From Thioalkalivibrio sp. ALE14 (GTDB lineage: Bacteria; Pseudomonadota; Gammaproteobacteria; Ectothiorhodospirales; Ectothiorhodospiraceae), in contig NZ_AQXY01000015.1 in assembly GCF_000376845.1 (NCBI RefSeq), positions 1 to 33,413 on the forward strand: a stretch of DNA of 33,413 nt, in the 5' to 3' direction. The notes beneath the pieces were generated by a model, which was not told the DNA's origin, did no database searches, and saw only the letters and a program-made list of their open reading frames with translations. Positions 150-26,686 of the stretch are shown here, piece after piece (the first letter of the stretch is position 1; each line of letters begins with the position of its first letter). The position numbers and the translations under genes are program-made.

Positions 150-362
150 TGTTGTTTGGCATGAGTTCATCTACATACTGGGTAATGGATACCCACCGCG
201 GTTTTCAGTCGCCCGACCCGAGTCGCCAGGGCGGTAACTCCGCCAGTGTTCAGGGCGTCCGGTCAATTACGGTCTCTTCCCTGCCCACGGGCCGGTGCGC
301 GCAGGTGCGCCGTGGCCGGGCACCTTCTTTCATCGCGACATTCGGCGCGAGGTAGGACGAAC
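150..362. other. Leader region without a recognisable gene
   Basis: Between the promoter candidate and the adaptor start there is no convincing coding sequence. A 68-codon frame from 149 and an in-frame GTG extension of the adaptor from 246 both lack a ribosome binding site and resemble no known protein. The extension would put non-signal sequence ahead of a good signal peptide. I see no riboswitch fold that I can name. Confidence 0.5.
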
Positions 363-1568
363 ATGTTTGCTCGAGTTTCCCGACACCTCATCACGGGCAC
401 CTTGCTGGGCGCCGCGCTGGCCCTGCCGATGGTTGGGGCGACGGTGCACGCCTCCGGCCCGGTCCTGACGGTGGAGCCGGACCAGGCGGCCACCCAGACC
501 GTCAGTGGCACGGTGATCCCCTTTCGCGAGGTCACCCTGACCGCGCAGTCGTCCGGACGCGTGGTGGATGTGGCGGGCGCCGAGGGCGACCGCTTCGAGC
601 AGGGTGCGGTCCTGGTGGCGATCAGCGACGACCGGCTGCGCGCCCAGCGCCAGGCGGCCGAGGCCGAGATGCGTACCGCCGAGGCGGCAATCCGCGAGGC
701 CCAGATGCAGTACGGCCGCGAGATGATCTCGCCGCAGTCGCGCAACCTCGGCCAGATGCCTGGCATGGGTGTGCCTTCGATGTTCGACCAGATGTTCACC
801 CAGCCGATGGGGCAGATGATGGGCATGGGCGACCCTGCGCTGGATCGGCGCACCGATCTCTACTCCCGCTACATCGGCGTGGATCAGGCCCAGGCGCGCT
901 GGGAGCAGGCCCGGGCCCGGGTGGCGGAGCTGGACGCGGCGATCCGCGACACCCGCTCCGAGGCCCCTTTTGACGGCCTGGTGATGAACAAGCACGTGGA
1001 AGAGGGCGACACCGTCCAGCCGGGGCAGCCGCTGGTGAGCTTCGGCCATGTCGAATTCCTTCGCGTCGAGGCTCAGGTTCCGGTGCGGCTGGTGAGCGGC
1101 TTGCAGGAAGACGACTACGTGCAGGTGCGCCTGGATACCGGGGATGAAGTGGAGGCCCGGGTCGCCCGAATCTTCCCCCTTGCCGATCCGCAGCGCCACA
1201 CCGTCACGGTCAAGTTCGACCTGCCCCAGGGCGTGCGCGGAGGGCCGGGCATGCACGCGGCGGTGCATCTGCCGCAGGCCGGTGCCACGGGTAACCGGGT
1301 GGTGATCCCGCGTTCGGCCCTGATCCCGGGCGGCGCACTGCCGCGGGTCGCCGTGCTGGACGGCGAGGGTTACGTACGGGTGCGCATGGTGCGCCTGGGC
1401 GGTTCGCGCGGCGACCAGGTGGTGGTGACCTCCGGACTGGAGCCGGGCATGCAGATCCTGGCACGGCCGGGGGCCGGCGTGCGCTCCGGCGAGCCGGTCG
1501 GCAGCCGCTCGTCGGGTTCCGGGCAGGGCCACCGCGACGGCGCCGCCGACCCCTGGAGCCGCATGTAG
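363..1568 (+). CDS. RND efflux periplasmic adaptor (HlyD/AcrA family) with Met-rich insert
   Basis: This 401-residue membrane fusion protein would link an inner-membrane RND pump to an outer-membrane channel. The ATG at 363 follows a weak GAGGT and begins a signal peptide (basic start, hydrophobic core, small residues near 25-31). A lipoyl half-domain (about 45-90), an alpha-hairpin region (about 92-195) and the second lipoyl half (about 196-228, with the family-typical APFDGLV) follow, then beta-barrel and membrane-proximal parts. Residues 121-155, where the hairpin should lie, hold nine methionines plus Gly and Pro (GMGVPSM, GQMMGMG). Such an insert is unusual and could bind soft metals such as Cu or Ag, but this is inference. 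The pump gene starts 132 bp downstream. No TolC-like channel gene is present. Confidence 0.88.
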   Translation: MFARVSRHLITGTLLGAALALPMVGATVHASGPVLTVEPDQAATQTVSGTVIPFREVTLTAQSSGRVVDVAGAEGDRFEQGAVLVAISDDRLRAQRQAAEAEMRTAEAAIREAQMQYGREMISPQSRNLGQMPGMGVPSMFDQMFTQPMGQMMGMGDPALDRRTDLYSRYIGVDQAQARWEQARARVAELDAAIRDTRSEAPFDGLVMNKHVEEGDTVQPGQPLVSFGHVEFLRVEAQVPVRLVSGLQEDDYVQVRLDTGDEVEARVARIFPLADPQRHTVTVKFDLPQGVRGGPGMHAAVHLPQAGATGNRVVIPRSALIPGGALPRVAVLDGEGYVRVRMVRLGGSRGDQVVVTSGLEPGMQILARPGAGVRSGEPVGSRSSGSGQGHRDGAADPWSRM

Positions 1569-1700: not shown

Positions 1701-4700
1701 ATGGCCGAAGACGAAAAACAATCCAACAGCGGCTTCCGTGAGAAGCACGGTGACCCCGGCATTGCCGGGCGCATGGCGGCGGCCTTTATCCATTCGCCGC
1801 TGTCGCCGCTGCTGCTGATCGCCAGTATCGCGATCGGCATCCTCGGCCTGATGGTGACCCCGCGCCAGGAGGACCCGCAGATTTCGGTGCCGATGGTGGA
1901 CATCATGGTGTCCTACCCCGGTGTCCCCTCGGAGCAGGTGGCGAGCCTGGCGGCGCGGCCGCTGGAGCGGCTGATGAGCGAGTTGTCCGGCGTCGACAAT
2001 GTCTACTCCGTGTCGCATCGCGGCGAGGCGATGGTGACCGTGCAGTTCGACGTTGGCGAGGAGATGGAGTCCTCCATCGTCAAGGTGCACGACAAGCTGA
2101 TGGCCAATCGCGACCTGATGCCACCCGGTGTCAGCGAACCCATGGTCAAGGCCAAGGGCGCGGACGACGTGCCGGTGGTCAACCTGACCTTCTGGTCGCA
2201 CGAGGTGGATGACGCCCTGCTGCGACAGATTGCGCTGGACGCACAGCAGCAGCTGAACGAGGTGCCCGATACCAGCCAGAGTTTCGTCGTCAGTGGGCGC
2301 GAGGAGCGCCTGCGCATCGACGTGCTGCCGGAACGCCTCGCGGGCTACGACGTCAGTCTGGACCAGATCGCCCAGGCGGTGCAGTCCGCGAATGTCGAGG
2401 GCGCCGCTGGGCGCATCGAGAGCGACGGCCTGAGTACCGCGGTGTACACCGGGCGTTTCTTCACCGGGGCGGCGGACCTGGAGCAGCTGCTGGTGGCCGT
2501 TAGTGACGGTCAGCCGGTCTACCTGCGCGACGTGGCCGAGGTGACGTACGGTCCGGGCGAGGTGGAGCAGTTCGTACGACATTATTCCGGGCTGGCGGCT
2601 GTTGACCCGGACGCCGCGCCGGAGGGTGCGGCAGCGGTGACCCTCGCGATTGCCAAGAAACCCGGCAGCAACGGCGTGACCGTGGCCAACAATGTCCTCG
2701 AACGTCTCGAACGCCTGAAGGGCAGCGTGATCCCGGACAACGTCGAGGTGGCGGTGTCGCGTGACTACGGCAAGACCGCCAACGAGAAGGTCAACGAACT
2801 GATCTTCAAGCTGTTCATCGCCACCTTCGCGGTGACCATCCTGGTGGGTTTGTTCCTGGGGATTCGCGCCGCCATCGTGGTGTTGATCGTGATCCCGGTG
2901 GTGATCCTGTTCACTGTCTTCAGTGCCTGGGTGCTCGGCTACACCATCGACCGCGTCAGCCTGTTCGCGCTGATCTTCTCCATCGGCATCCTGGTCGACG
3001 ACGCCATCGTGGTCGTGGAGAACATCTACCGCCGCTGGCTGATGAAGCGCGGCATCGACACCGAGACCTCGGTGGATGCCGTGCGCGAGGTCGGCAACCC
3101 GACCATCCTGGCGACCTTCACGGTCATCGCGGCCCTGCTTCCGATGGGCTTTGTCTCCGGGATGATGGGCCCGTACATGCAGCCGATCCCGGTGCTGGGC
3201 TCGGTGGCCATGCTGTTCTCGCTGGTCGCGGCCTTCGTGTTCACCCCGTGGCTGACCCAGCGTCTGCGCCCGAGCATGGCGTATCTGGAAAAGGCCACCG
3301 AAAAGGAACACCGCCAGGCGGAGAAGCTGGGCCGGTTCTATCGCACGGCGATTCCGGGGCTGGCCGACAACCGTGTGCGCGGCTATGCCTTCCTGATCGG
3401 CGTGATCGTGATCTTCTTCCTGGTGGTCAGCCTGTTCATGACCACCGATGTCCGCGTGAAGATGCTGCCGCTGGACAACAAGCCCGAGTTCCAGGTGGTG
3501 GTGAACTTCCCGGAGGGCACCGCCCTGACCGAGACCGCCACGCTGAGCCACGACATGGCCTCGATCCTGCGCGACATGGACGAGGTGATTGGCCTGCAGT
3601 CCTATGTCGGCACGGCGTCGCCGTTCAATTTCAACGGCCTGGTGCGCCACTACTACCTGCGCGATAAACCCTGGCAGGGCGACATCCAGGTGCAGCTGGT
3701 GGACAAGGGCGACCGCAGCCGCACCTCGCACGAGATCGCGACCGAGGCGCGCGAACGCCTGACCCCGCTGGCCGAGGCCGCAGGCGCGCGCATCCAGGTG
3801 GTCGAGATGCCGCCGGGCCCGCCGGTCCTGCAGTCCGTGGTGGCCGAGGTGTATGGCCCCGACGCTGCTACCCGCCGCGCGGTGGCCCGCGACCTCGAGG
3901 GTATGTTCGCCAATGCCGAGCACGTCGCGGACGTGGACAGCTTCCTGCAGGCGCCGCACAACGTTTGGCATTTCGATGTGGACCGCGACAAGGCGTTGCG
4001 CCGCGGCGTGACCGTGGAGACCATCAATCGCACCCTGGAGACCGCGATCGGCGGACAGATCCTCGGTGATGTGAAGGCGCAGTCACTGGTGGAGCCGCAC
4101 CTGATCGAGATGCGCCTGCCCATGGCCACGCGCAACGACATCCGGCAACTGGAGATGCTGCCGGTGTTCACCCGCCAGGGCGGATCGATCCCGCTGGCCG
4201 AACTGGGCGAATTCGTCCAGCGCCCGCAGGACGAGCCGATCTACCACAAGAACCTGCGGCCGGTGGAGTACGTGACCGGCGAGGTGGTCGGGCGCCTTGC
4301 GGCCCCGGTGTACGGAATGCTGGAGGTCCAGGAGCAGCTGGAGGACTACCGTCTGCCGGATGGCAGCCAGGTGCAGCCGCACTGGCTCGGCCCACCGCCC
4401 AATGACGACTCCACCGCGTTCGAGTGGGCCGGTGAGTGGACGGTGACCTACGAGACCTTCCGCGACATGGGCATCGCGTTCGCCATCGCGCTGATCCTGA
4501 TCTACATGCTGGTGGTCTGGGAGTTCGGCAACTTCGTGCTGCCGGGCATCATCATGGCCCCGATCCCGCTGACCCTGATCGGGATCATCCCCGGCCACTG
4601 GCTGATGAACGCCGAGTTTACCGCGACCTCGATGATCGGCTTTATAGCGCTCGCGGGGATCATCGTCCGAAATTCGATCCTGCTGGTGGACTTCGGTCGC

Positions 4701-6059
4701 CAGGCCGTGGACGAGGGCCATGACGTGCGCGACGCGATGATCCTGGCCTGCCAGGCGCGCACTCGTCCGATCATCATCACCGCGCTGGCGCTGCTGGCCG
4801 GTTCCAGCGTGATCCTGTTCGACCCGATCTTCCAGGGCATGGCGATCTCGCTGATGTTCGGCACCGTGGTGGCCACCCTGCTGACCCTGCTGGTGATCCC
4901 GCTGGGCTGCATCTCGGGGCGCCGCGCGTTCTGTCCGACCAGCCTCGACGCGGATGGCGAGGCCGCCGCGGTTTGCGCGAACGGCAATGGCAATGGGCAT
5001 GGCGGTATGGCCGGTGCGACGCGCGTCGCGGCCGGTAGCGGCGCTGGCGAGGGCAAAGACTTCTTTGGCCCGCGTGACGGCGGTCCGGTCACCCTGGCCG
5101 TTCAGTACGGCGGGCTTTATCTCAAGTGCCTGGCGCTCGCGTTCCTCGAGGGGCTGCGCGATCTGGCCCTGGCCCTGTGGCACCTCGTCCGCTCCTTCCT
5201 GGAGCGCCGGCGCGACGGTGGCGGCGGCTCGCCGCCGCCCGGCGGCGGGGCGGGTGGTCCCTCCGCCGGGTTCGGCGGACCCACAGGTGGGGCTGGCCCG
5301 GGATCGGCGTCGGGCCCGAGTGCGACGGCTACCGGTTCCGGCACCGCCGGGAGCGCCTCGCAGTCTCGCAACGATGGGCCATCCGCCGATTCGACCCGGG
5401 CCTCCGGGGCCCCGGATCCGGTCGTTCAGGCTCCCGATCCCGAGGGTCGCACCGACGCCTCCACGCAAACGGGCACCACGACCGACGGCGAGTATGCGGG
5501 GGCTACCCAGGACCAGCGTGCTGACCGCACACAGGCGGACTCGAGTACCGCGACGACGCCCCGAAAGGTGACCGGCACGAAGCGCCGGTCACGAGCCAGT
5601 GCCGGGGGCGCGTCCGCATCGGGAGGCGGCACCGGGTCGCGGACCGCCAGGAAGGACTCTGGCAGCGCGGCCGGGACGAAGACGACCAAAACGGCCTCGG
5701 GTACCACTTCGCCATCGTCGAAGGGCACGGGTACCGCAAAGAAGACCACCCGCAAGGCGGCTACGGGTTCGGCCGCGAGTCCGCAGCGCAAGACTGCCGC
5801 AACGGCGGGCAAGGCCGAGTCGTCCGCCGCCGGCAGTACCAACAAAGGGCGTGGTGGCAGCGCCGGAAAGAGCGGCGGCAGCACCGCGGCGAACAAGCGC
5901 GCGTCGACGACGTCCAACAAGAAGACCGGCGGGACCAAAACGTCCGCCGCCACGAGCAGCAAGACCGGCCGCAAGGACAGCGGCAGTGCCCCCAAGGGGG
6001 GTGGCAAGTCGGGTACGCCCGGCAAGGGCCGCGCCCGGCGCGGGATTCGTCTCAAATGA
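1701..6059 (+). CDS. RND efflux pump permease with long low-complexity C-terminal tail
   Basis: The first about 1070 residues are a full AcrB/TriC-like RND permease that exports substrates using proton motive force. TM1 lies near 28-50. The block ILVDDAIVVVEN is in the first TM bundle and LAGIIVRNSILLVDF in the second. Two large periplasmic porter regions lie between the bundles. The usual length is about 1030-1070 residues, but this protein has 1452. After the last TM segment comes a linker, an amphipathic or hydrophobic helix (about 1136-1171, YGGLYLKCLALAF...), and then a Gly/Ser/Thr/Ala tail. The last 150 residues of the tail are strongly basic, with repeated TKKT/KTAS/RKDSGS-like blocks reminiscent of histone H1 or AlgP. 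The frame is open throughout with normal GC3, so the tail is probably real. The ATG at 1701 has only a distant AGGA upstream. Confidence 0.9.
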   Translation: MAEDEKQSNSGFREKHGDPGIAGRMAAAFIHSPLSPLLLIASIAIGILGLMVTPRQEDPQISVPMVDIMVSYPGVPSEQVASLAARPLERLMSELSGVDNVYSVSHRGEAMVTVQFDVGEEMESSIVKVHDKLMANRDLMPPGVSEPMVKAKGADDVPVVNLTFWSHEVDDALLRQIALDAQQQLNEVPDTSQSFVVSGREERLRIDVLPERLAGYDVSLDQIAQAVQSANVEGAAGRIESDGLSTAVYTGRFFTGAADLEQLLVAVSDGQPVYLRDVAEVTYGPGEVEQFVRHYSGLAAVDPDAAPEGAAAVTLAIAKKPGSNGVTVANNVLERLERLKGSVIPDNVEVAVSRDYGKTANEKVNELIFKLFIATFAVTILVGLFLGIRAAIVVLIVIPVVILFTVFSAWVLGYTIDRVSLFALIFSIGILVDDAIVVVENIYRRWLMKRGIDTETSVDAVREVGNPTILATFTVIAALLPMGFVSGMMGPYMQPIPVLGSVAMLFSLVAAFVFTPWLTQRLRPSMAYLEKATEKEHRQAEKLGRFYRTAIPGLADNRVRGYAFLIGVIVIFFLVVSLFMTTDVRVKMLPLDNKPEFQVVVNFPEGTALTETATLSHDMASILRDMDEVIGLQSYVGTASPFNFNGLVRHYYLRDKPWQGDIQVQLVDKGDRSRTSHEIATEARERLTPLAEAAGARIQVVEMPPGPPVLQSVVAEVYGPDAATRRAVARDLEGMFANAEHVADVDSFLQAPHNVWHFDVDRDKALRRGVTVETINRTLETAIGGQILGDVKAQSLVEPHLIEMRLPMATRNDIRQLEMLPVFTRQGGSIPLAELGEFVQRPQDEPIYHKNLRPVEYVTGEVVGRLAAPVYGMLEVQEQLEDYRLPDGSQVQPHWLGPPPNDDSTAFEWAGEWTVTYETFRDMGIAFAIALILIYMLVVWEFGNFVLPGIIMAPIPLTLIGIIPGHWLMNAEFTATSMIGFIALAGIIVRNSILLVDFGRQAVDEGHDVRDAMILACQARTRPIIITALALLAGSSVILFDPIFQGMAISLMFGTVVATLLTLLVIPLGCISGRRAFCPTSLDADGEAAAVCANGNGNGHGGMAGATRVAAGSGAGEGKDFFGPRDGGPVTLAVQYGGLYLKCLALAFLEGLRDLALALWHLVRSFLERRRDGGGGSPPPGGGAGGPSAGFGGPTGGAGPGSASGPSATATGSGTAGSASQSRNDGPSADSTRASGAPDPVVQAPDPEGRTDASTQTGTTTDGEYAGATQDQRADRTQADSSTATTPRKVTGTKRRSRASAGGASASGGGTGSRTARKDSGSAAGTKTTKTASGTTSPSSKGTGTAKKTTRKAATGSAASPQRKTAATAGKAESSAAGSTNKGRGGSAGKSGGSTAANKRASTTSNKKTGGTKTSAATSSKTGRKDSGSAPKGGGKSGTPGKGRARRGIRLK

Positions 6060-6090: not shown

Positions 6091-6813
6091 ATGAAGAAGC
6101 GATTCAACACCCGAATGATCGGTACCACGCTGGCCAGTGCCGCCGTGGCATCCGTGCTGGCCCTGGGCGTCGCCCAGGCTCAGGAACAGGAACAGGGCTA
6201 CGGCCAGGGTCCGGCAATGGGCCAGCAGGGCCCGGTGCCGGGTCCCTACGGCCATGCCCCGTACGGTTCCGGCATGGGCATGCATCCCGGTGGCGGGATG
6301 ATGCAGCAGCGTGAAGGCTCCGGTGACTTCAGCTTCGGCATGTCCGGACGGGGCCACGGCCAGGGCTACGGCCGCGGTCATGGTGACGGGTACGGGCAGG
6401 GCTACGGTCGTGGCCACCAGGGTTACGGTCCCGGTTATGGCTACGGCCCCGGCTACGGCCAGGGGTATGGCCAGGGCTACGGCCCCGGTCCGCAGCAGGG
6501 CGGCTTTGGCCATCCGGGGATGATGCAGCCGGGCTACGGCATGCAGCAGCGCCCGGCCTACGGCCAGATGCCGGAGTTCGATCCGGAGAACCTGCCGGAG
6601 GATATGCCGGAAGAGATGCGCGAGCGCATCCAGGCTCAGCATGCCGAGCGCCAGGAGCGCATGGAAGAGATGCAGGCCATGCGCGAGGCACGCCAGAAGG
6701 CGATGGAAGCGGGCCGTGCGGCCTACGAGGAAGAGATGGAACGCCAGCGCGAGCGCCGCATGGAGATGATGCAGGAACGCCGTGAAGCCATGGAAGAAGG
6801 CGACGGCTACTGA
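6091..6813 (+). CDS. Secreted Gly/Tyr-rich sulfur globule-type protein with charged C-terminal helix
   Basis: A 240-residue exported protein that starts after a strong AGGAGG 31 bp behind the pump stop. A Sec signal peptide (1-30) ends in AQA|QEQ. Residues 31-160 are Gly, Tyr, Gln and Pro rich, with the block GDFSFGMSGRGHG (78-90) followed by many GYG-x repeats. This block plus the repeats is the hallmark of the sulfur globule proteins CV1/CV2 of Allochromatium vinosum, which coat periplasmic sulfur globules. Unlike those roughly 95-residue proteins, this one adds a Glu/Arg/Met-rich tail (about 163-240) predicted to be a single long helix. It shares the GDF-x-F-x-SGRG signature with the gene at 7410. 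The family assignment is by pattern, not by search. Confidence 0.72.
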   Translation: MKKRFNTRMIGTTLASAAVASVLALGVAQAQEQEQGYGQGPAMGQQGPVPGPYGHAPYGSGMGMHPGGGMMQQREGSGDFSFGMSGRGHGQGYGRGHGDGYGQGYGRGHQGYGPGYGYGPGYGQGYGQGYGPGPQQGGFGHPGMMQPGYGMQQRPAYGQMPEFDPENLPEDMPEEMRERIQAQHAERQERMEEMQAMREARQKAMEAGRAAYEEEMERQRERRMEMMQERREAMEEGDGY

Positions 6814-6887
6814 TCCGCGGGTCAGTCAGCGTTAGGCGACGGGCACGGGTGTCCGTCGCCGTGGAAGCCAGACGGAGGCGGTTCGCC

Positions 6888-7328
6888 ATGCAGGGCAGGC
6901 AGTTCGGTCAATCGAAACGTACGCGGGCCAGGAGCACCCCGATTCTCGGGGTCATGCTGGCCGCGGGGTTCCTGTTGCCGGTCGCCGACTTGGCGGCGAG
7001 TGACCGCCACAACCCGTGGGCCTCCGGTTCGCCGGAGGTGCAGCGCTCGGCACCGGAACGCCCGCGCGGGCGTTTTCCGGACCGCGATTACGATCCCTCG
7101 CAACGGGGCGAATCGCGGGACGCGCAGGGTTCGCCGCCGCACGCTCCGGCGTACCGGGGCTACGCGCCGCACGGCCCCTACGGTGCACCGGGTGCTCCGT
7201 CGTTCCACACCCCCGGCGGGATGCCGGGAGGCTATCCATACGGGTATCCGGGTTCGCCCGGGTATCCCGGCATGGGCGGGCCGGCTTCGGCCTTCCCCTG
7301 GGGGATGGGCGGTTTTCCATTCCCCTGA
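6888..7328 (+). CDS. Secreted Gly/Pro/Tyr-rich protein, possible accessory globule protein
   Basis: A 146-residue protein. I chose the ATG at 6888 because GGAGG at 6874-6878 is well spaced; a GTG at 6849 would add 13 residues without a binding site. The N-terminus is strongly basic (KRTRARS) and followed by a hydrophobic stretch (about 18-36) ending in DLAAS, consistent with a signal peptide or anchor. A charged Pro/Arg stretch (50-80) leads to a Gly/Pro/Tyr region (GGYPYGYPGSPGYPGMGG) and ends in FPWGMGGFPFP. It lacks the GDF-SGRG signature of its two neighbours, so I do not call it a true sulfur globule protein. Composition and its place between two such genes suggest a related envelope role. 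Confidence 0.6.
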   Translation: MQGRQFGQSKRTRARSTPILGVMLAAGFLLPVADLAASDRHNPWASGSPEVQRSAPERPRGRFPDRDYDPSQRGESRDAQGSPPHAPAYRGYAPHGPYGAPGAPSFHTPGGMPGGYPYGYPGSPGYPGMGGPASAFPWGMGGFPFP

Positions 7329-7409: not shown

Positions 7410-7871
7410 ATGAACAAGTTTGTCAAAGCAGCAGTTCTCGCCGTTTCCCTGGGTGGCCTGGCCGCCCCGATGATGGCCTCTGCCCAGTGGGGCGGTCCGG
7501 GCTACGGGTATGGCCCCGGTGCCTATGGTCCTGGCTACGGCTATGGCCCCAGCATGCCGTTCTTCGGTGGCCCCGGTTACGGCTCCGGCCGTAACTACGG
7601 CATGGGCGACATGATGGGCGACATGATGGGCGACGGTGCCTTTGACTTCTCCGCCAGCGGTCGCGGCCGTGGTCACGGGTATGGTCATGGCTACGGCGAC
7701 GGCTACGGCCGTGGCTATGGTCAGGGTTACGGCCATCCGGGTTACGGCTATGGCCCGGGCTACGCTCCCGGCTATGGCTACGGCCCGGGGTACGGTCCGC
7801 AGGGCTATGGTCCGCAGGGCTATGGCCCGCAGGGTCAGATGCCGCAGCAACAGCAGGGTCAGGGCAACTAA
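7410..7871 (+). CDS. Sulfur globule protein (SgpA/SgpB type)
   Basis: A 153-residue secreted protein with strong AGGAGGT upstream. The signal peptide ends ASA|QW at residue 25. The mature part has GYGYGPG repeats, then the tandem [12 protein letters not shown] (65-76) and [11 protein letters not shown] (78-88), then more GYG repeats and a Gln-rich end. A repeated GD-M motif followed by DFxxxxSGRG and Gly/Tyr repeats is what I recall of Allochromatium vinosum SgpA/SgpB, structural coat proteins of periplasmic sulfur globules. It is the closest match of the three Gly-rich genes here. The 81-bp gap before it contains GCGTGCA/TGCACGC (7337-7343 and 7364-7370), which may fold in the mRNA leader. 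A strong terminator follows, so it ends the first operon. Confidence 0.8.
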
Positions 7872-7920: not shown

Positions 7921-7969
7921 GAGTATTGCGGATTGGCGGGCCGAGCACGGCCGCCAATCCGCAATATTC
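7921..7969. repeat. Long near-perfect hairpin without T-tract
   Basis: Bases 7924-7939 (TATTGCGGATTGGCGG) are the exact reverse complement of 7951-7966. Three further outer pairs and an inner CCG/CGG around a four-base AGCA loop extend the stem, with a single bulged G at 7940. It follows the terminator within three bases, has no T-run, and lies 40 bp before the ParA gene. It may be a protein-binding palindrome, a dispersed repeat or an mRNA 3'-end protector. Confidence 0.7.
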
Positions 7970-7979
7970 AAGGGAATAT
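7964..7979. promoter_or_regulatory. Small palindrome upstream of the ParA gene, possible operator
   Basis: ATATTC-AAGG-GAATAT is a perfect 6-bp inverted repeat with a 4-bp spacer. It overlaps the right foot of the long hairpin and lies 28 bp before the ParA start codon. The size and position suit a dimeric regulator. No clear -35/-10 pair could be assigned. Confidence 0.3.
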
Positions 7980-8007
7980 GCACTCGTGTTCCCTCTAAGG
8001 AGACGCC

Positions 8008-8652
8008 ATGCAGACCGTCGTCGCCAATCTCAAGGGCGGTACCGGAAAGAGTACCGTGGTCTTTAACCTGGCCCTGTGGTTGCAGGAGGGGCGTCGGCGC
8101 GCCCTGACCGTGGATCTGGATCCGCAACGAACCCTCAGTGATGTCCTCGAGGTGCGCCAGGAGGAAGGTTACGAGCCCGCCGTGGATGCGGCGGAGGATC
8201 TCGAGGCGGCCGGTGCGCGGGCTGGCGAGTACGACGAGGTGCTGATCGACGTGGGTGCGTCGGACATGGCCTCGCTGATGGCGGCGGTGGAGGCCGCCGA
8301 TCGTGTGCTGATCCCGGTGCCACCCAGCCAGGCGGACGTCTGGTCGACCTATCGTTTTGTGCAGCGGATCCAGGAGCAGCGGGGAACGCGCGCGCGTCCG
8401 GAGATCCTGGCGTTTATCAACCGGGCCGACACGCACCAGGCGGTGCGCGAAAGCGACGAGACCTTCGAGGCGCTGCAGCAGATCGAGGGCGTTCGCCTGC
8501 TCAAGCCGCGGTTGAAGCAGCGCATGGCCTTCCGCCGCTCGTTCAGCGAGGGGCTTTCGGTACGCGAGCTGGAGCCGCGAGGCAAGGCCTCTGCCGAGCT
8601 GGACGCCCTGGCGGCTGCTTTGTTCGGACGTAGCCGTCGCAAGAAAAAATAA
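8008..8652 (+). CDS. Orphan ParA/MinD-type ATPase
   Basis: A 214-residue P-loop ATPase of the ParA family, which position plasmids, chromosomes or protein cargos on the nucleoid or membrane. The deviant Walker A motif is KGGTGKST (9-16) with its signature lysine. Walker A' is VDLDPQ (about 36-41) and Walker B is VLIDVGAS, where many ParA proteins have a DTPP-like end. The protein is short, lacks an N-terminal DNA-binding domain and ends in a basic RSRRKKK. That fits the small cargo-positioning type rather than a plasmid partition ParA. No ParB or parS-like gene adjoins it. AAGGAG lies seven bases before the ATG. The same strand and small gaps link it to the DUF302, coiled-coil and dynamin-like genes. 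Cargo is unknown; sulfur globules are my inference. Confidence 0.85.
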   Translation: MQTVVANLKGGTGKSTVVFNLALWLQEGRRRALTVDLDPQRTLSDVLEVRQEEGYEPAVDAAEDLEAAGARAGEYDEVLIDVGASDMASLMAAVEAADRVLIPVPPSQADVWSTYRFVQRIQEQRGTRARPEILAFINRADTHQAVRESDETFEALQQIEGVRLLKPRLKQRMAFRRSFSEGLSVRELEPRGKASAELDALAAALFGRSRRKKK

Positions 8653-8702
8653 TATGGCGCGTCCGGGATGACCGTGACGCGGACACCGACGAGGAGACGT
8701 AC

Positions 8703-9290
8703 ATGCGCTTCATACGCAATGCACTGGTCGTGATCGGGCTTTTGGCACTGGTTGGCGTGGGGTATGCCATCTTTGCCTTCGAGCCCTATATGAGCCAGGC
8801 CCGTTCGCTGGACTCCCAAGCGCCCAAGGTCTATTCGCAGATGGCCCGCACGGTGCTGGAGACCGGCGATGCCGCCGAGGCGATGGTCTACAAGCGCAAG
8901 GTGGAAGAGGGCCTGGCGGTGGAGGACGTGGAAGATATCCTGCGCCTGGTAGCCAACGAGCTGAATATTCGCAACGTTGGTGAGCTGCCGATGGGCGAGG
9001 AAGTCCGCAGCGTCACCGGCGAGGATTTCCCGTTCCTGAAGATCTACATGTTCTGCGACGTGGCCATCGCCGCGCAGATGGTGCGGCACAGTCCGGCGAT
9101 GGCTGCGTATCTGCCGTGCCGGATCGTCTTGCAGGAGGATGCCGAGGGCGACCTCTGGCTGATGACGCTGGACCTGGACCCGATGATCCACGGGGGACGC
9201 CCGTTGCCCGACGATCTGTACGAGCAGGCGGTGTTCGTGAAGGAATCACTTGAAGAGATCATTGATCGCGCTGCCGTTGGCGCCTTCTGA
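8703..9290 (+). CDS. Membrane-anchored DUF302 domain protein
   Basis: A 195-residue protein with one N-terminal TM helix or uncleaved signal (about 7-26) and a periplasmic domain. Residues 105-165 fit DUF302: a beta strand (FLKIYMFCDVAIAA), an alpha helix, then LPCRIVLQED and a final strand LWLMTLDLDP. Two cysteines (118 and 139) stand out; CRI is the common family position. The function of DUF302 is not established, and these proteins are often found in sulfur-oxidiser and heavy-metal gene neighbourhoods. GAGGAG precedes the ATG. It lies 50 bp after the ParA gene, so probably the same transcript. Confidence 0.72.
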   Translation: MRFIRNALVVIGLLALVGVGYAIFAFEPYMSQARSLDSQAPKVYSQMARTVLETGDAAEAMVYKRKVEEGLAVEDVEDILRLVANELNIRNVGELPMGEEVRSVTGEDFPFLKIYMFCDVAIAAQMVRHSPAMAAYLPCRIVLQEDAEGDLWLMTLDLDPMIHGGRPLPDDLYEQAVFVKESLEEIIDRAAVGAF

Positions 9291-9334
9291 CGGGGTAATG
9301 GACCCCATTTCCATGAATCAACAAAGGGCGTTCA

Positions 9335-9856
9335 ATGAGTGAGGCAAGTAGCAGCGAGTTTGAAGAGGTTCGGGACGAGGCGGACAAGGCGGATGCCCGG
9401 TCCAAGCGTCTGGAATTAATTGTGTACACGGCCCTGGTGGCCTTCATCGTGCTGGCGATCTACGGCTTCTGGCTGATCACCAGCCTGACCCGTGATGTCA
9501 GTCAGTTGACCGAGGAGATCGCGGAAATGACCCGGGTGGTGGATCGCGACATGTCCACCATCGCCGGTCACATGGCCTCGATGGATCACCAGATGACCGA
9601 TATCAACAACACGATGCGGGTGATGAACGAGGAAGTGGCCGTGATCGCGAACAATACCCGCTCGATGGACGCCAACATCGGCTCGATGACGCGCGATACC
9701 AGCGTCATGGCGGGCTCTGTCGTGGGCATGCAGCAGGACATGTGGAGCCTGAATCGCAATGTGGGGGCGCCCATGGGTATGATGAACATGTTCAACCCAT
9801 TCACCGATCAGAGTGGTCCGGTCCGGGGTTCGCCAGGGCCGTATTACCCGCGCTGA
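9335..9856 (+). CDS. Single-TM coiled-coil protein of unknown function
   Basis: A 173-residue protein that I do not recognise as a named family. A charged cytoplasmic N-terminus (1-27) precedes one TM helix (about 28-50). A long helical segment (52-142) follows with regularly spaced Met, Ile and Val (for example EMTRVVDRDMSTIAGHM), expected to form a coiled coil. The C-terminus is Pro/Gly-rich and has a Met-rich GAPMGMMNMF stretch (144-153). The layout suggests a membrane tether or scaffold. It lies 44 bp after the DUF302 gene and 27 bp before the dynamin-like gene. The ribosome site (AAAGGG) is weak. Confidence 0.7.
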   Translation: MSEASSSEFEEVRDEADKADARSKRLELIVYTALVAFIVLAIYGFWLITSLTRDVSQLTEEIAEMTRVVDRDMSTIAGHMASMDHQMTDINNTMRVMNEEVAVIANNTRSMDANIGSMTRDTSVMAGSVVGMQQDMWSLNRNVGAPMGMMNMFNPFTDQSGPVRGSPGPYYPR

Positions 9857-9883
9857 TCGCGCGTTTCGACTGACGGAGTCCGC

Positions 9884-11449
9884 ATGTTCAATCGTCCTGG
9901 TCCAAGGGTTCGCAAGCAGCTCAAGCTGCTGAGCGACCGCCTTGCCGAAGAGAATCCGGTGCTGAAGGGCGTTGTGGATCCCTTCCGGGATCTGGACCGG
10001 GTCGGCTATGCGGCCGGTCTGCTCGATCCCACCGAGGATTCCTACGCCTTCGGTATCTCCTGGTGGCCGATGATCGCCACGCTGGGGACCTTCTCCGCCG
10101 GCAAGTCCACGTTCATCAACGAGTACGTGGGCACGACCGTGCAGCGCAGTGGTTCCCAGGCGGTGGACGACAAGTTCACCGTTATCAGCTATGGCGGCAG
10201 CGAACACGTGCAGGAGCTGCCGGGGCTCGCACTCGACGGTGATCCGCGCTTCCCGTTCTATCGGGTGTCCGACGAGATCGAACGCATCACCGATGGCGGC
10301 GGCCGCACGGTGGATCACTTCCTGGCCATGAAGACCGCGCGTTCGGAGCGCCTGCGGGGTCGCATCATTATCGACTCCCCCGGGTTCGATGCCGACGAGC
10401 AGCGCGCGACCATCCTGCAGCTGACCGATCACATCATCGACCTGTCCGATCTGGTGCTGGTGTTCTTCGACGCCCGCCATCCGGAACCCGGCGCGATGCG
10501 CGACACCCTGGAGCATCTGGTCAATCGCGTGGCCGAACGCAACGACTTCACCAAGCTGGTGTTCATCCTCAACCAGATCGACACCACCTGGCGCGAGGAC
10601 AACCTGGAGGAGGTCGTCTCCGCCTGGCAGCGTGCGGTCGTGCGCCAGGGGAACGCCACCGGGCGTTTCTACTGCCTGTACAACGAGAGTGCGGCGGTGG
10701 AGATCGGCGACCCACAGGTGCGCGAGCGCTACGAGGAAAAGTCCCGGCGCGACCGCGAGGAGATCCATGCCAAGATTCAGGAGATCAGTTCTTCGCGTTC
10801 CTACCGCATCCTGGGTTCGCTGCAGGCCATCGCCGAATCGATCGAGATGGATGCCCTCCCGGCCCTGAAGAAGGCGCTGGAGCAGTGGCGTCGCCGCGTG
10901 GTGCAGTTCGATGCCGGGATGTTCGCGGTGGTCGCGGTGATCCTGGGCCTGGTGGGCTACCAGTCGGCGGGCGGCATCGCTCCCTGGACCGACGGCAGTG
11001 TCTGGCAGTCCATGGGTGAGCGCCCGCTGCTGACGGCCTTTGGCCTGGTGGTGCTGGCGATCGTGCTGGGCGGGATTCACTTTTTCAATCGCCGCTGGAT
11101 CGCGCGGCGCATCGCGCGGACGCTGCCGACCGAGAGCGCCGCCGGCAACTGGCAGGCGGCATTCGAAAAGAACACGCGTCCCTGGCGCCCGATGGTCGGG
11201 CGTGCACCGCTGGGGCTGGGGCGGCGCATGATCAGCCGCCTGCACCAGCTGCGCGACCGCGCCGAGGCCTACATCCAGCGTCTGAACAACCAGTTCGTGG
11301 ACGCCAGCCCGGTCTCGCGCCAGGGCGGACGGGCCTCCGCCACCGATGTTTACCATCCCAGAGAGCCGGAAGCCCCGGCCCCGGAACCCACGCCGGGCAC
11401 GGATGCGCCCCGCGATTACGCCGAGCCGGAGGCGCCGGAGAAGCGCTAG
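9884..11449 (+). CDS. EHD/dynamin-like large GTPase with two TM segments
   Basis: A 521-residue nucleotide-driven membrane-remodelling candidate. G1 is GTFSAGKST (68-76), the middle stretch DDKFTVISYG (95-104) resembles the EHD/dynamin switch region, G3 is DSPG (164-167) and G4 is NQID (230-233). SDLVLVFFDARHPEPG (188-203) resembles the EHD pattern 'RIILLFDAHK-D-S'. After a helical region (275-340) come two hydrophobic segments (about 345-362 and 383-402), so the protein is probably an integral inner-membrane protein, unlike eukaryotic EHDs. The C-terminus (485-521) is a Pro/Glu-rich disordered tail. Bacterial dynamin-like proteins fuse or bend membranes. Substrate membrane and nucleotide preference are unknown. 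Confidence 0.83.
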   Translation: MFNRPGPRVRKQLKLLSDRLAEENPVLKGVVDPFRDLDRVGYAAGLLDPTEDSYAFGISWWPMIATLGTFSAGKSTFINEYVGTTVQRSGSQAVDDKFTVISYGGSEHVQELPGLALDGDPRFPFYRVSDEIERITDGGGRTVDHFLAMKTARSERLRGRIIIDSPGFDADEQRATILQLTDHIIDLSDLVLVFFDARHPEPGAMRDTLEHLVNRVAERNDFTKLVFILNQIDTTWREDNLEEVVSAWQRAVVRQGNATGRFYCLYNESAAVEIGDPQVRERYEEKSRRDREEIHAKIQEISSSRSYRILGSLQAIAESIEMDALPALKKALEQWRRRVVQFDAGMFAVVAVILGLVGYQSAGGIAPWTDGSVWQSMGERPLLTAFGLVVLAIVLGGIHFFNRRWIARRIARTLPTESAAGNWQAAFEKNTRPWRPMVGRAPLGLGRRMISRLHQLRDRAEAYIQRLNNQFVDASPVSRQGGRASATDVYHPREPEAPAPEPTPGTDAPRDYAEPEAPEKR

Positions 11450-11488
11450 TCGGCTCGCGCCACACCCCGAAGCCGCACAGCTTGGGGG

Positions 11489-11503
11489 CGGCTATATTAG
11501 CCG
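11489..11503. promoter_or_regulatory. Palindrome over a -10-like box upstream of the microprotein
   Basis: CGGCTA-TAT-TAGCCG is a perfect inverted repeat whose centre contains TATATT, a plausible -10 element. No good -35 is seen at 16-18 bp. It lies 25 bp before the small membrane protein and could be an operator/promoter for that gene and the DsrE2 gene. Confidence 0.3.
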
Positions 11504-11527
11504 TAGATGTTGTGCAGGAGGAGCACG

Positions 11528-11674
11528 ATGACCATACTGGCATGGCTCATGTTTGCGTTGGCGATGATCCTGGTCCCAATCTCCGTATGGGCCAGCATGG
11601 CGGCGCTGGGGATATGTGCGGGCTGTGCACTGATCCGCGACTGGCGCAGGGGGCGCCAGGCGTCGGGGCAGTAG
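11528..11674 (+). CDS. 48-residue membrane microprotein
   Basis: A short open frame with strong AGGAGGAG (11516-11523) a few bases upstream of its ATG. The product begins MTILAWLMFALAMILVPISV, a hydrophobic stretch continuing to about residue 36. CAGC-like cysteines are at residues 30 and 33 (ICAGCAL), and the tail RDWRRGRQASGQ is basic and cytoplasmic by the positive-inside rule. It has one or two TM segments and resembles no family I know. The ribosome binding site, hydrophobicity pattern and position between the dynamin-like and DsrE2 genes support it as real. Confidence 0.55.
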   Translation: MTILAWLMFALAMILVPISVWASMAALGICAGCALIRDWRRGRQASGQ

Positions 11675-11706
11675 GCCCGCCCGCGGGCTTTAATGATTAA
11701 CCAATC

Positions 11707-11747
11707 GGGACGGATCCCGCGCAGGGGGCTGCGGCGGATCCGGTCCC
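11707..11747 (+). other. GC-rich hairpin in front of the DsrE2 gene
   Basis: GGGACGGATCC (11707-11717) pairs with GGATCCGGTCCC (11736-11747) with one bulge, and CGCAG/CTGCG extends the stem inward. Only three Ts follow and then the ribosome site of the next gene. It could be a weak terminator or attenuator, or an mRNA-stabilising leader fold. Confidence 0.45.
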
Positions 11748-11772
11748 TTTACCACTGGAGGAGAACGTACCA

Positions 11773-12243
11773 ATGAGTGATCAGAAGAAAATGGCCATCA
11801 TCGCCACCAAGGGCAGCCTGGACTGGGGTTACCCCCCGTTCATCCTGGCCTCGACGGCGGCCGCCCTGGGCTATGACTGCGAGGTGTTCTTCACCTTCTA
11901 CGGCCTGCAGCTGCTGCGCAAGAAGCTGGACCTGCAGGTGACCTCGCTGGGTAACCCGGGCATGCCGATGCCCATGCCCATGCCGGTGATGCTCCAGGCC
12001 CTGCCGGGCATGCAGAAAATGATGACCGTCATGATGAAGAAGAAGATGGCGGCGAAGGGTGTCTCCGATCTGGGCGACCTGCGCGAGCTGTGCCTGGAGG
12101 CCGAGGTGCGCATGATCGCCTGCCAGATGACGGTGGACCTGTTCGACATGGATACCAGCGAATTCATCGACGGCGTGGAATACGCCGGGGCGGCCGCGTT
12201 CTTCGAGTTCGCCGGCGAGTCCGATATCTGCCTGTTCATCTGA
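11773..12243 (+). CDS. DsrE2-like sulfur-carrier family protein
   Basis: A 156-residue protein of the DsrE/DsrF superfamily, DsrE2 type. The early strand MAIIATKGSLDWGYPPFILASTAAALGY and EVFFTFYGLQLLRK (37-50) are typical of the group. A Met/Pro-rich loop (64-92, with PMPMPMP then MKKKM) precedes a second domain with IACQMTVDLFDM (115-126). Cys117 lies at the position of the conserved DsrE2 cysteine that takes part in persulfide transfer in sulfur oxidisers. Other cysteines are at 36, 107 and 153. Family members usually sit next to TusA and rhodanese genes, which are absent here. GGAGGAG precedes the ATG. A strong terminator follows. Confidence 0.83.
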   Translation: MSDQKKMAIIATKGSLDWGYPPFILASTAAALGYDCEVFFTFYGLQLLRKKLDLQVTSLGNPGMPMPMPMPVMLQALPGMQKMMTVMMKKKMAAKGVSDLGDLRELCLEAEVRMIACQMTVDLFDMDTSEFIDGVEYAGAAAFFEFAGESDICLFI

Positions 12244-25869: not shown

Positions 25870-25897
25870 GCGGCGCTCCCCGGTCGGCTGACCGGTG

Positions 25898-26686
25898 ATG
25901 GACTTCGATTTTTCCGGGGTCGCCATCCTGTTGGTGGTGGCCGGCTTTCTGGCCGGGCTGCTGAATGCGGTGGCCGGGGGCGGCAGCTTCCTGACCCTGC
26001 CGGCCCTGATGAGTGTGGGCGTCCCCCCGGTGGCCGCAAATGCCACCGGGACCGCGGCGCTGTTGCCCGGATACCTCGCCAGCGTCCTCGCGGACGGGAG
26101 GCGGCTGCGCGGGGCCTGGCAGGAGCTGGGGCCGCGGCTGGCCTGGGGGCTCCTGCTGGCGGGCGTGCTTGGCGGGGCCGTTGGCGCGGTCGCCTTGCTG
26201 CTGACCGGAGACGCCGCTTTCCGTGTCCTGATCCCCTGGCTGCTGCTGGTCGCCACGGTGCTGTTCGCGCTGGGGCCCTGGCTGCAGCGCCAGGCGGCGC
26301 GGCCGCATCCGGGGCCGTTGCGCGCCCTGGGCGCGGGGCTGGGCTGCGCCTACGGCGGCTATTTCAACGGCGGCGTCGGGATCCTGCTGATGGCGATCCT
26401 GCGCGGCCAGGGTGTGACGGACCTGCCCCGGGCCAACGCGCTCAAGAACCTGCTGTCCTCGGTGCTGACACTAATGGCCGTCGTGGTCTATATCGCGGGT
26501 GGCCAGGTGGTGGCCACCGGCCTGCTGGCGGTCGGGGCCGGGGCGATCCTCGGGGCGCGTGTCGGGCTGGCGATCGTGCGCCGCCTGCCAGAGGCGGGGT
26601 ATCGCCACGTCGTCACCGGGATCGGTGTGGCGATCACCGCTCTGTTTTTCCTCGACCCCGCCTGGCTTGCATCGCCCACTTCGTAG
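25898..26686 (+). CDS. TauE/SafE (TSUP) family permease
   Basis: A 262-residue membrane protein with about eight TM helices. The family motif lies in GFLAGLLNAVAGGGSFLTLPALMSVG (about 16-41), followed by PPVAANATGTAALLPGY, and the second repeat starts with GAGLGCAYGGYFNGGVGILLMA. TSUP members move sulfite, sulfonates or related organic anions; in a sulfur oxidiser sulfite export is possible, but the substrate is not shown. Start ATG 25898; a GTG one codon earlier is an alternative. The TAG stop lies inside an intergenic repeat. Confidence 0.88.
   Translation: MDFDFSGVAILLVVAGFLAGLLNAVAGGGSFLTLPALMSVGVPPVAANATGTAALLPGYLASVLADGRRLRGAWQELGPRLAWGLLLAGVLGGAVGAVALLLTGDAAFRVLIPWLLLVATVLFALGPWLQRQAARPHPGPLRALGAGLGCAYGGYFNGGVGILLMAILRGQGVTDLPRANALKNLLSSVLTLMAVVVYIAGGQVVATGLLAVGAGAILGARVGLAIVRRLPEAGYRHVVTGIGVAITALFFLDPAWLASPTS

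Follow-up and report, generated by a model that had tools for sequence, protein, structure and literature searches.

Many chemolithotrophs and animal symbionts store sulfur inside the cell in large globules. In the literature that we searched on sulfur globules only coat proteins are treated, and nothing was found on placement, sharing at division or fit of the globules into the envelope. Here we analyse a locus in a stretch of 33,413 nucleotides (the window) from Thioalkalivibrio sp. ALE14 (genome G000), where the gene of a ParA ATPase follows genes encoding candidate sulfur globule proteins (Sgp). The locus resembles the McdA/McdB carboxysome system and other ParA/MinD systems in two respects, as far as these are covered in the accessible part of the source: a ParA without ParB is encoded beside genes of a protein-coated inclusion, and one end of a candidate partner is disordered and positively charged, as is the N-terminus of the described ParA partners (PMC10241942). 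It also resembles the SgpA-D set of A. vinosum, which, in the sections of the paper available to us, comprises secreted envelope proteins, the SgpD gene being adjacent to that of an exporter of hydrophobic or amphiphilic compounds (PMC10386293).

The locus is probably a conserved cassette for organising sulfur globules in the form that it takes in Thioalkalivibrio; in it, ParA would space and partition a pump complex together with the globule. Directly observed are the parts of the cassette and their order, the genome-wide association with the Pfam SGP family and with sulfur oxidation, and a motif in the tail of an RND permease that covaries with ParA. A gene set conserved in this way points to an active organisation of the sulfur granules in many sulfur oxidisers. 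If ParA does position the globules, they would be a new, extracytoplasmic class of ParA cargo, and the cassette would be the first known machinery for spacing and inheritance of sulfur globules. The features of the locus in the window are as follows (TM, transmembrane segment; TMcc, one-TM coiled-coil protein).

246..1568, + strand: HlyD/RND periplasmic adaptor, the first gene of the cassette (Pfam HlyD_D23, 57.8 bits versus 30), also preceding RND in relatives
1701..6059, + strand: RND permease of 1452 amino acids with a long low-complexity C-terminal tail (Pfam ACR_tran, 518.4 bits), upstream of Sgp and ParA in relatives too
4956..6059, + strand: residues 1086-1452 of the RND permease, a basic tail of low complexity with 52 K/R and 22 D/E
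6036..6056, + strand: RRGIRLK motif at the C-terminus of the permease, predicted to contact ParA and covarying with it
6091..6813, + strand: Sgp-like secreted Gly/Tyr-rich protein of 240 amino acids with a charged, coiled-coil-like C-terminus (Pfam SGP, 20.0 bits)
6849..7328, + strand: secreted Pro/Gly-rich protein of 159 amino acids with an NPW motif, kept in the genus between both Sgp-like genes and matching no Pfam family; start uncertain (in-frame ATG at 6888)
7410..7871, + strand: Sgp-like secreted protein of 153 amino acids (Pfam SGP, 24.4 bits; the gene of a congener at the same place passes the cut-off)
8008..8652, + strand: ParF-like ParA ATPase without ParB, 214 amino acids, with the deviant Walker A motif KGGTGKST (ParF 4dzz, E 2.2e-12)
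8703..9290, + strand: membrane-anchored DUF302 protein with one N-terminal TM (Pfam DUF302, 54.3 bits versus 23)
9335..9856, + strand: TMcc, with a basic cytoplasmic N-terminus and a coiled coil predicted to be periplasmic (alignment A2, flank charges)
9884..11449, + strand: EHD-like GTPase of the dynamin superfamily with a two-TM hairpin
11528..11674, + strand: membrane microprotein of 48 amino acids with a ribosome-binding site, 77-98% identical in aligned congeneric loci
11773..12243, + strand: DsrE2 sulfur carrier (NCBIfam NF047629, 287.3 bits versus a cut-off of 210)

A preliminary description of this DNA had proposed a run of six genes on one strand, from ParA to DsrE2, behind the Sgp-like genes; open reading frames (ORFs), families and intergenic gaps (50, 44, 27, 78 and 98 bp) all agree with it. 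The order is not a chance reading, because it is kept in most Thioalkalivibrio loci read. The named relatives with the GTPase up to 97% identical belong to this genus. As had been noted, the ParA is an orphan: ParB is not among the window genes scanned, some small ORFs lying outside the scan. The six genes stand as described, and the unit has to be extended by core members then omitted, namely the RND exporter and its adaptor preceding the Sgp-like genes and, in relatives, genes of LolA-like and TPR proteins. No outer-membrane factor gene was seen among the scanned neighbours of the RND and HlyD genes, and no carboxysome genes were found among the scanned window genes.

The distribution of the cassette genes was considered in a sample of 275 gammaproteobacterial genomes. 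Pfam SGP occurs in 42 of them, in 41 above the cut-off. ParA is present in 38/42 SGP genomes versus 11/233 others, TMcc in 39/42 versus 14/233, and the GTPase in 38/42 versus 29/233. All three genes together were observed in 31/42 SGP genomes and in 10/233 SGP-negative ones; no SGP genome (0/42) lacks all three. The association persists within the 89 genomes containing dsrA, where the counts for genomes with and without SGP are 34/38 and 8/51 (ParA), 35/38 and 11/51 (TMcc), 34/38 and 11/51 (GTPase). When the SGP genomes are collapsed to 26 families, 24 of these retain ParA, 25 TMcc and 25 the GTPase. The genes are also close to each other: of the genomes containing both genes of a pair, ParA is at most 8 kb away from SGP in 13/38 (about 0.6 expected for 3 Mb genomes), from TMcc in 27/46 and from the GTPase in 26/44. 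Thus the link to Sgp, previously drawn from gene order only, is now also seen genome-wide. The thresholds were E <=1e-57 for ParA (49 genomes, the next two being near 1e-31), E <=1e-15 for TMcc (53 of 74 genomes with any match) and E <1e-50 for dsrA (83 genomes above the cut-off and 6 partial). All 49 genomes containing the ParA subfamily have dsrA (42) or soxB (the remaining 7), so the homologues in this class are not mostly those of non-sulfur bacteria, the outcome that would have spoken against the original proposal.

A sample of 319 genomes from the phylum yielded 34 further ParA genomes outside the class. Five of these match Pfam SGP, four of them with the SGP gene immediately before ParA. 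In the 12 outside-class loci that were read, Gly/Asn/Tyr/Trp-rich ORFs were observed upstream of ParA in 10, TMcc in 11, and the GTPase in 2.

The Pfam SGP family (PF17228) has a cut-off of 26.7 bits, which neither Sgp-like gene of the window reaches, and the genome-wide scan of the window's genome with this family gave no match. The SGP gene beside ParA in the congener G022 passes the cut-off with 29.2 bits, the one upstream of ParA in locus L083 scores 51.1 bits, and outside the class the cut-off is passed at the same place in G315, G318, G321 and G515. Upstream of ParA, a Gly/Asn/Tyr/Trp-rich ORF was found in 36/70 loci versus 2/3561 background ORFs. A home-made Sgp-like profile served for gene maps only; it was kept out of the statistics because its seeds come from the cassette, and the statistics rest on Pfam SGP. 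In several lineages the genes between RND and ParA include those of secreted low-complexity proteins containing NPW or DPWG motifs (L107 5757-6977, L208 6537-7274, window 6849-7328), perhaps another family of coat proteins. L039 (5890-6561) and L040-L043, which are Thioalkalivibrio GTPase loci without ParA and TMcc, encode an SgpA-like protein whose C-terminus is charged, beside the TPR, GTPase, microprotein and DsrE2 genes.

The C-terminal ends of the RND permeases could be read in 80 loci; three were dropped, as the locus ends before ParA would appear, and 77 were judged. A relaxed form of the tail motif is present within the last 90 residues in 66/69 RND genes with ParA in the locus. In L222 the tail has the variant RKGIRLK. 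The RND gene is short in L083 and L217, and there the motif is encoded by a Lys-rich ORF of its own at the gene's end. In total, RRGIRLK or a variant was found in 69/69 loci with ParA, including the two on a separate small ORF. The motif is missing in 7/8 RND loci without ParA, four of these seven belonging to genomes without ParA anywhere (G115, G134, G172, G234). The eighth ParA-less locus, L179 of G119, has kept the motif, and a divergent ParA is encoded on another contig of this genome. Of the other ORFs of these loci, 9054 in number, two have the strict motif, and these are the split tails. The association of the relaxed motif with ParA has p = 3.8e-07, a value that overstates independence, as the 77 loci include close relatives.

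Given the topology of AcrB, the tail is presumably cytoplasmic. The tail may also resemble the basic Gly-Leu motif that ParB proteins carry close to their N-terminus. The tail in the window (4956-6059, about 370 residues) is Lys-, Ser-, Gly- and Thr-rich, like a linker-histone tail. It could bind DNA directly.

The gene order was compared in named loci selected by the GTPase, the best 80 of 557 (16 from Thioalkalivibrio and 64 others), with rarer relatives outside this scope. The usual order is HlyD, RND, secreted proteins, ParA, TPR, (DUF302), TMcc, GTPase. Among the 64 other loci, many of them on short contigs, at least 39 contain ParA, at least 44 TMcc, at least 37 RND, at least 35 TPR, at least 16 LolA-like, at least 15 Sgp-like (home-made profile), and at least 13 DUF302 genes. 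Carriers of the cassette include Thiothrix, Cocleimonas, Leucothrix, Sedimenticola, Thiogranum, Thiohalobacter, and symbionts of molluscs or annelids. All 16 Thioalkalivibrio loci and none of the 64 others have DsrE2 and the microprotein in this position; on these counts both were rejected as core members. Thus the co-occurrence across sulfur oxidisers that had been suggested holds for Sgp, also beyond the genus and the class; for DsrE2 at the locus it is confined to Thioalkalivibrio.

Within Thioalkalivibrio, ParA was found in 24 and a strong TMcc match in 23 of 30 genomes. The near-complete genomes G001, G005, G021 and G029 lack both, and the other misses are fragmented or partial assemblies. 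An extra TPR gene of many Thioalkalivibrio is missing from the clade of the window. In G025 the locus is split: one contig contains HlyD, RND, Sgp, NPW, Sgp, ParA, DUF302, TMcc, microprotein and DsrE2, and another contains the GTPase with TPR, microprotein and DsrE2, so that the last two genes are present on both halves. This split, together with sister genomes lacking ParA and TMcc, indicates that the cassette moves as a block independent of the GTPase.

ParA contains the motif KGGTGKST (of the KGGxGK[ST] type) at residues 9-16, invariant in 11 aligned sequences (alignment A3). Its relatives of solved structure are, by sequence, ParF (4dzz, 2.2e-12), MipZ (3.9e-8) and McdA (6noo, 7.4e-8). The best NCBIfam match, ParA_partition (NF041546), is below the cut-off, at 142.2 bits versus 180.

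The GTPase matches Dynamin_N with 53.4 bits versus 27 and has the motifs GTFSxGKS, DSPGFD and NxID (G1, G3 and G4), invariant in alignment A1. It has an EHD-type fold; no EH domain is among its Pfam matches. The gene occurs in 67 of the 275 genomes of the class, 23 of which lack this ParA, and some cassettes have no GTPase; therefore the GTPase was rejected as an obligate member. In L056, from another genus of the same family, a GTPase homologue 51% identical (8055-9524) follows rnc, behind lepA and lepB, and has no cassette around it; DsrE-like and GcvH-like genes lie about 5 kb from it.

The residues flanking the TM of TMcc have summed charges of +16 before and -12 after it (13 sequences). 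Some genomes contain up to seven copies of TMcc. In four genomes TMcc paralogues are on the dsrA contig at a distance of about 5-12 kb (L171 16031-16600, L172 12717-13340, L173 4120-5243, L174 6716-7252). TMcc-like genes share a contig with dsrA in G098, G226, G092 and G093; in the two of these four loci that were viewed, the neighbours were uninformative. Farther downstream in the window, at 25895-26686, there is a gene of the TauE/SafE (sulfite exporter) family.

These observations can be combined in the following scheme. The Sgp, NPW and LolA-like proteins would be exported and would coat or feed periplasmic globules. The RND-HlyD pair, together with TMcc, DUF302 and TPR proteins, may form an inner-membrane complex touching the globule from the periplasm. 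Nucleoid-bound ParA would be contacted by the basic RND tail with its RRGIRLK motif, and perhaps also by the basic N-terminus of TMcc. ParA would then space and partition the inner-membrane complex, with the globule carried along. The EHD-like GTPase, where present, may shape the inner membrane around the globule, and delivery of sulfur to the cytoplasmic oxidation route would fall to DsrE2. In the central step, ParA would act across the inner membrane to position an extracytoplasmic organelle, the RND tail being the partner of ParA and the pump gripping the globule from the periplasm; this step is proposed tentatively, with somewhat less than even confidence. Of the positioning and membrane remodelling suggested in the preliminary description, the genomic association with Sgp and sulfur oxidation is now established, and the two activities themselves stay at the level of prediction. 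The cassette supplies candidates for globule placement, and the short peptide motif renders the question of the ParA partner testable in vitro.

One possibility is that the cassette is an exporter or envelope-coat system, where RND moves sulfur compounds, lipids or other hydrophobic material, the Sgp-like proteins are secreted to act with it, and the role of ParA is limited to clustering or polarising the pump, leaving the globules unmoved. Indeed, RND and HlyD widely accompany ParA, the tail motif links ParA to the pump and not directly to Sgp, the LolA/RseB-like fold fits handling of hydrophobic cargo, and A. vinosum has the exporter gene next to that of SgpD (PMC10386293, accessible part). 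However, such a system leaves unexplained why ParA and TMcc track Pfam SGP genome-wide, even within dsrA genomes, and we consider it unlikely. The GTPase has to be judged separately. It may be a general envelope dynamin of gammaproteobacteria that is a frequent neighbour of the cassette and has no role in the globules, and this deserves real, if minority, weight given its many carriers without this ParA. Moreover, it is alone in 11/64 loci outside Thioalkalivibrio (some on short contigs) and divergent to the RND and other cassette genes in 9 of the best 80. On the other hand, its enrichment in SGP genomes and its frequent location within 8 kb of ParA speak against this reading.

The block gain or loss of the cassette in Thioalkalivibrio would agree with ecological hitch-hiking, that is, with an island of sulfur oxidisers inherited as a block with no joint function. 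We regard this as very improbable, as the association holds within dsrA genomes and across 26 families, the order is retained at about 50% protein identity, and the RND tail motif covaries with ParA. Least credible of all is a ParA left over from a plasmid system, serving DNA partition and unrelated to sulfur. It would fit the plasmid protein ParF as the closest solved relative and the sub-threshold match to ParA_partition, whereas ParB was not found, the neighbours are fixed across families, and every ParA genome of the class has dsrA or soxB.

Several points weigh against a globule-organising cassette. The ParA subfamily is absent from 4/42 SGP genomes, and L134, L137 and L186, as read at the locus, keep Sgp, LolA, TPR, TMcc and GTPase without ParA; therefore ParA seems dispensable for some globules. 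The 23 GTPase carriers mentioned above do without this ParA, and outside the class only 5/34 ParA genomes match Pfam SGP. The Gly/Asn/Tyr/Trp-rich ORF is limited to 36/70 loci, the others having Pro/Ala-rich secreted proteins upstream of ParA. The proposed partner end is a C-terminus, whereas the described ParA partners use the N-terminus. The E-value thresholds were chosen after the distributions were seen, and the case for positioning is one of genomic association. SUP05 genomes have four sgp genes and no dynamin, according to the accessible part of PMC6509183. Finally, the part of PMC8877833 available to us reports Ectothiorhodospiraceae as having no internal sulfur storage or Sgps, and NCBI places Thioalkalivibrio in this family.

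The earlier statement that no described system joins ParA with sulfur globules agrees with our literature search, which found none in the papers within reach; those available by subscription (A. vinosum proteome and transcriptome) were beyond it. In the accessible part of the description of A. vinosum SgpA-D, ParA, TMcc and dynamin are unmentioned (PMC10386293). Unlike EHD ATPases and bacterial dynamins (EHD4, IniA, BDLP), the GTPase of the window has a two-TM hairpin in its helical part and no Pfam EH domain. The partition ATPase ParF of plasmid TP228 is the best solved sequence relative of ParA; unlike ParF, the latter is encoded in a chromosomal operon with the Sgp/RND set, where ParG and ParB were not found. 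Finally, the locus differs from McdA/McdB in that the ParA sequence is nearer to ParF than to McdA and that an RND permease, through its C-terminal tail, is predicted to act as the partner. The coat proteins here have signal peptides, and therefore the cargo, unlike that of McdA/McdB, would be extracytoplasmic.

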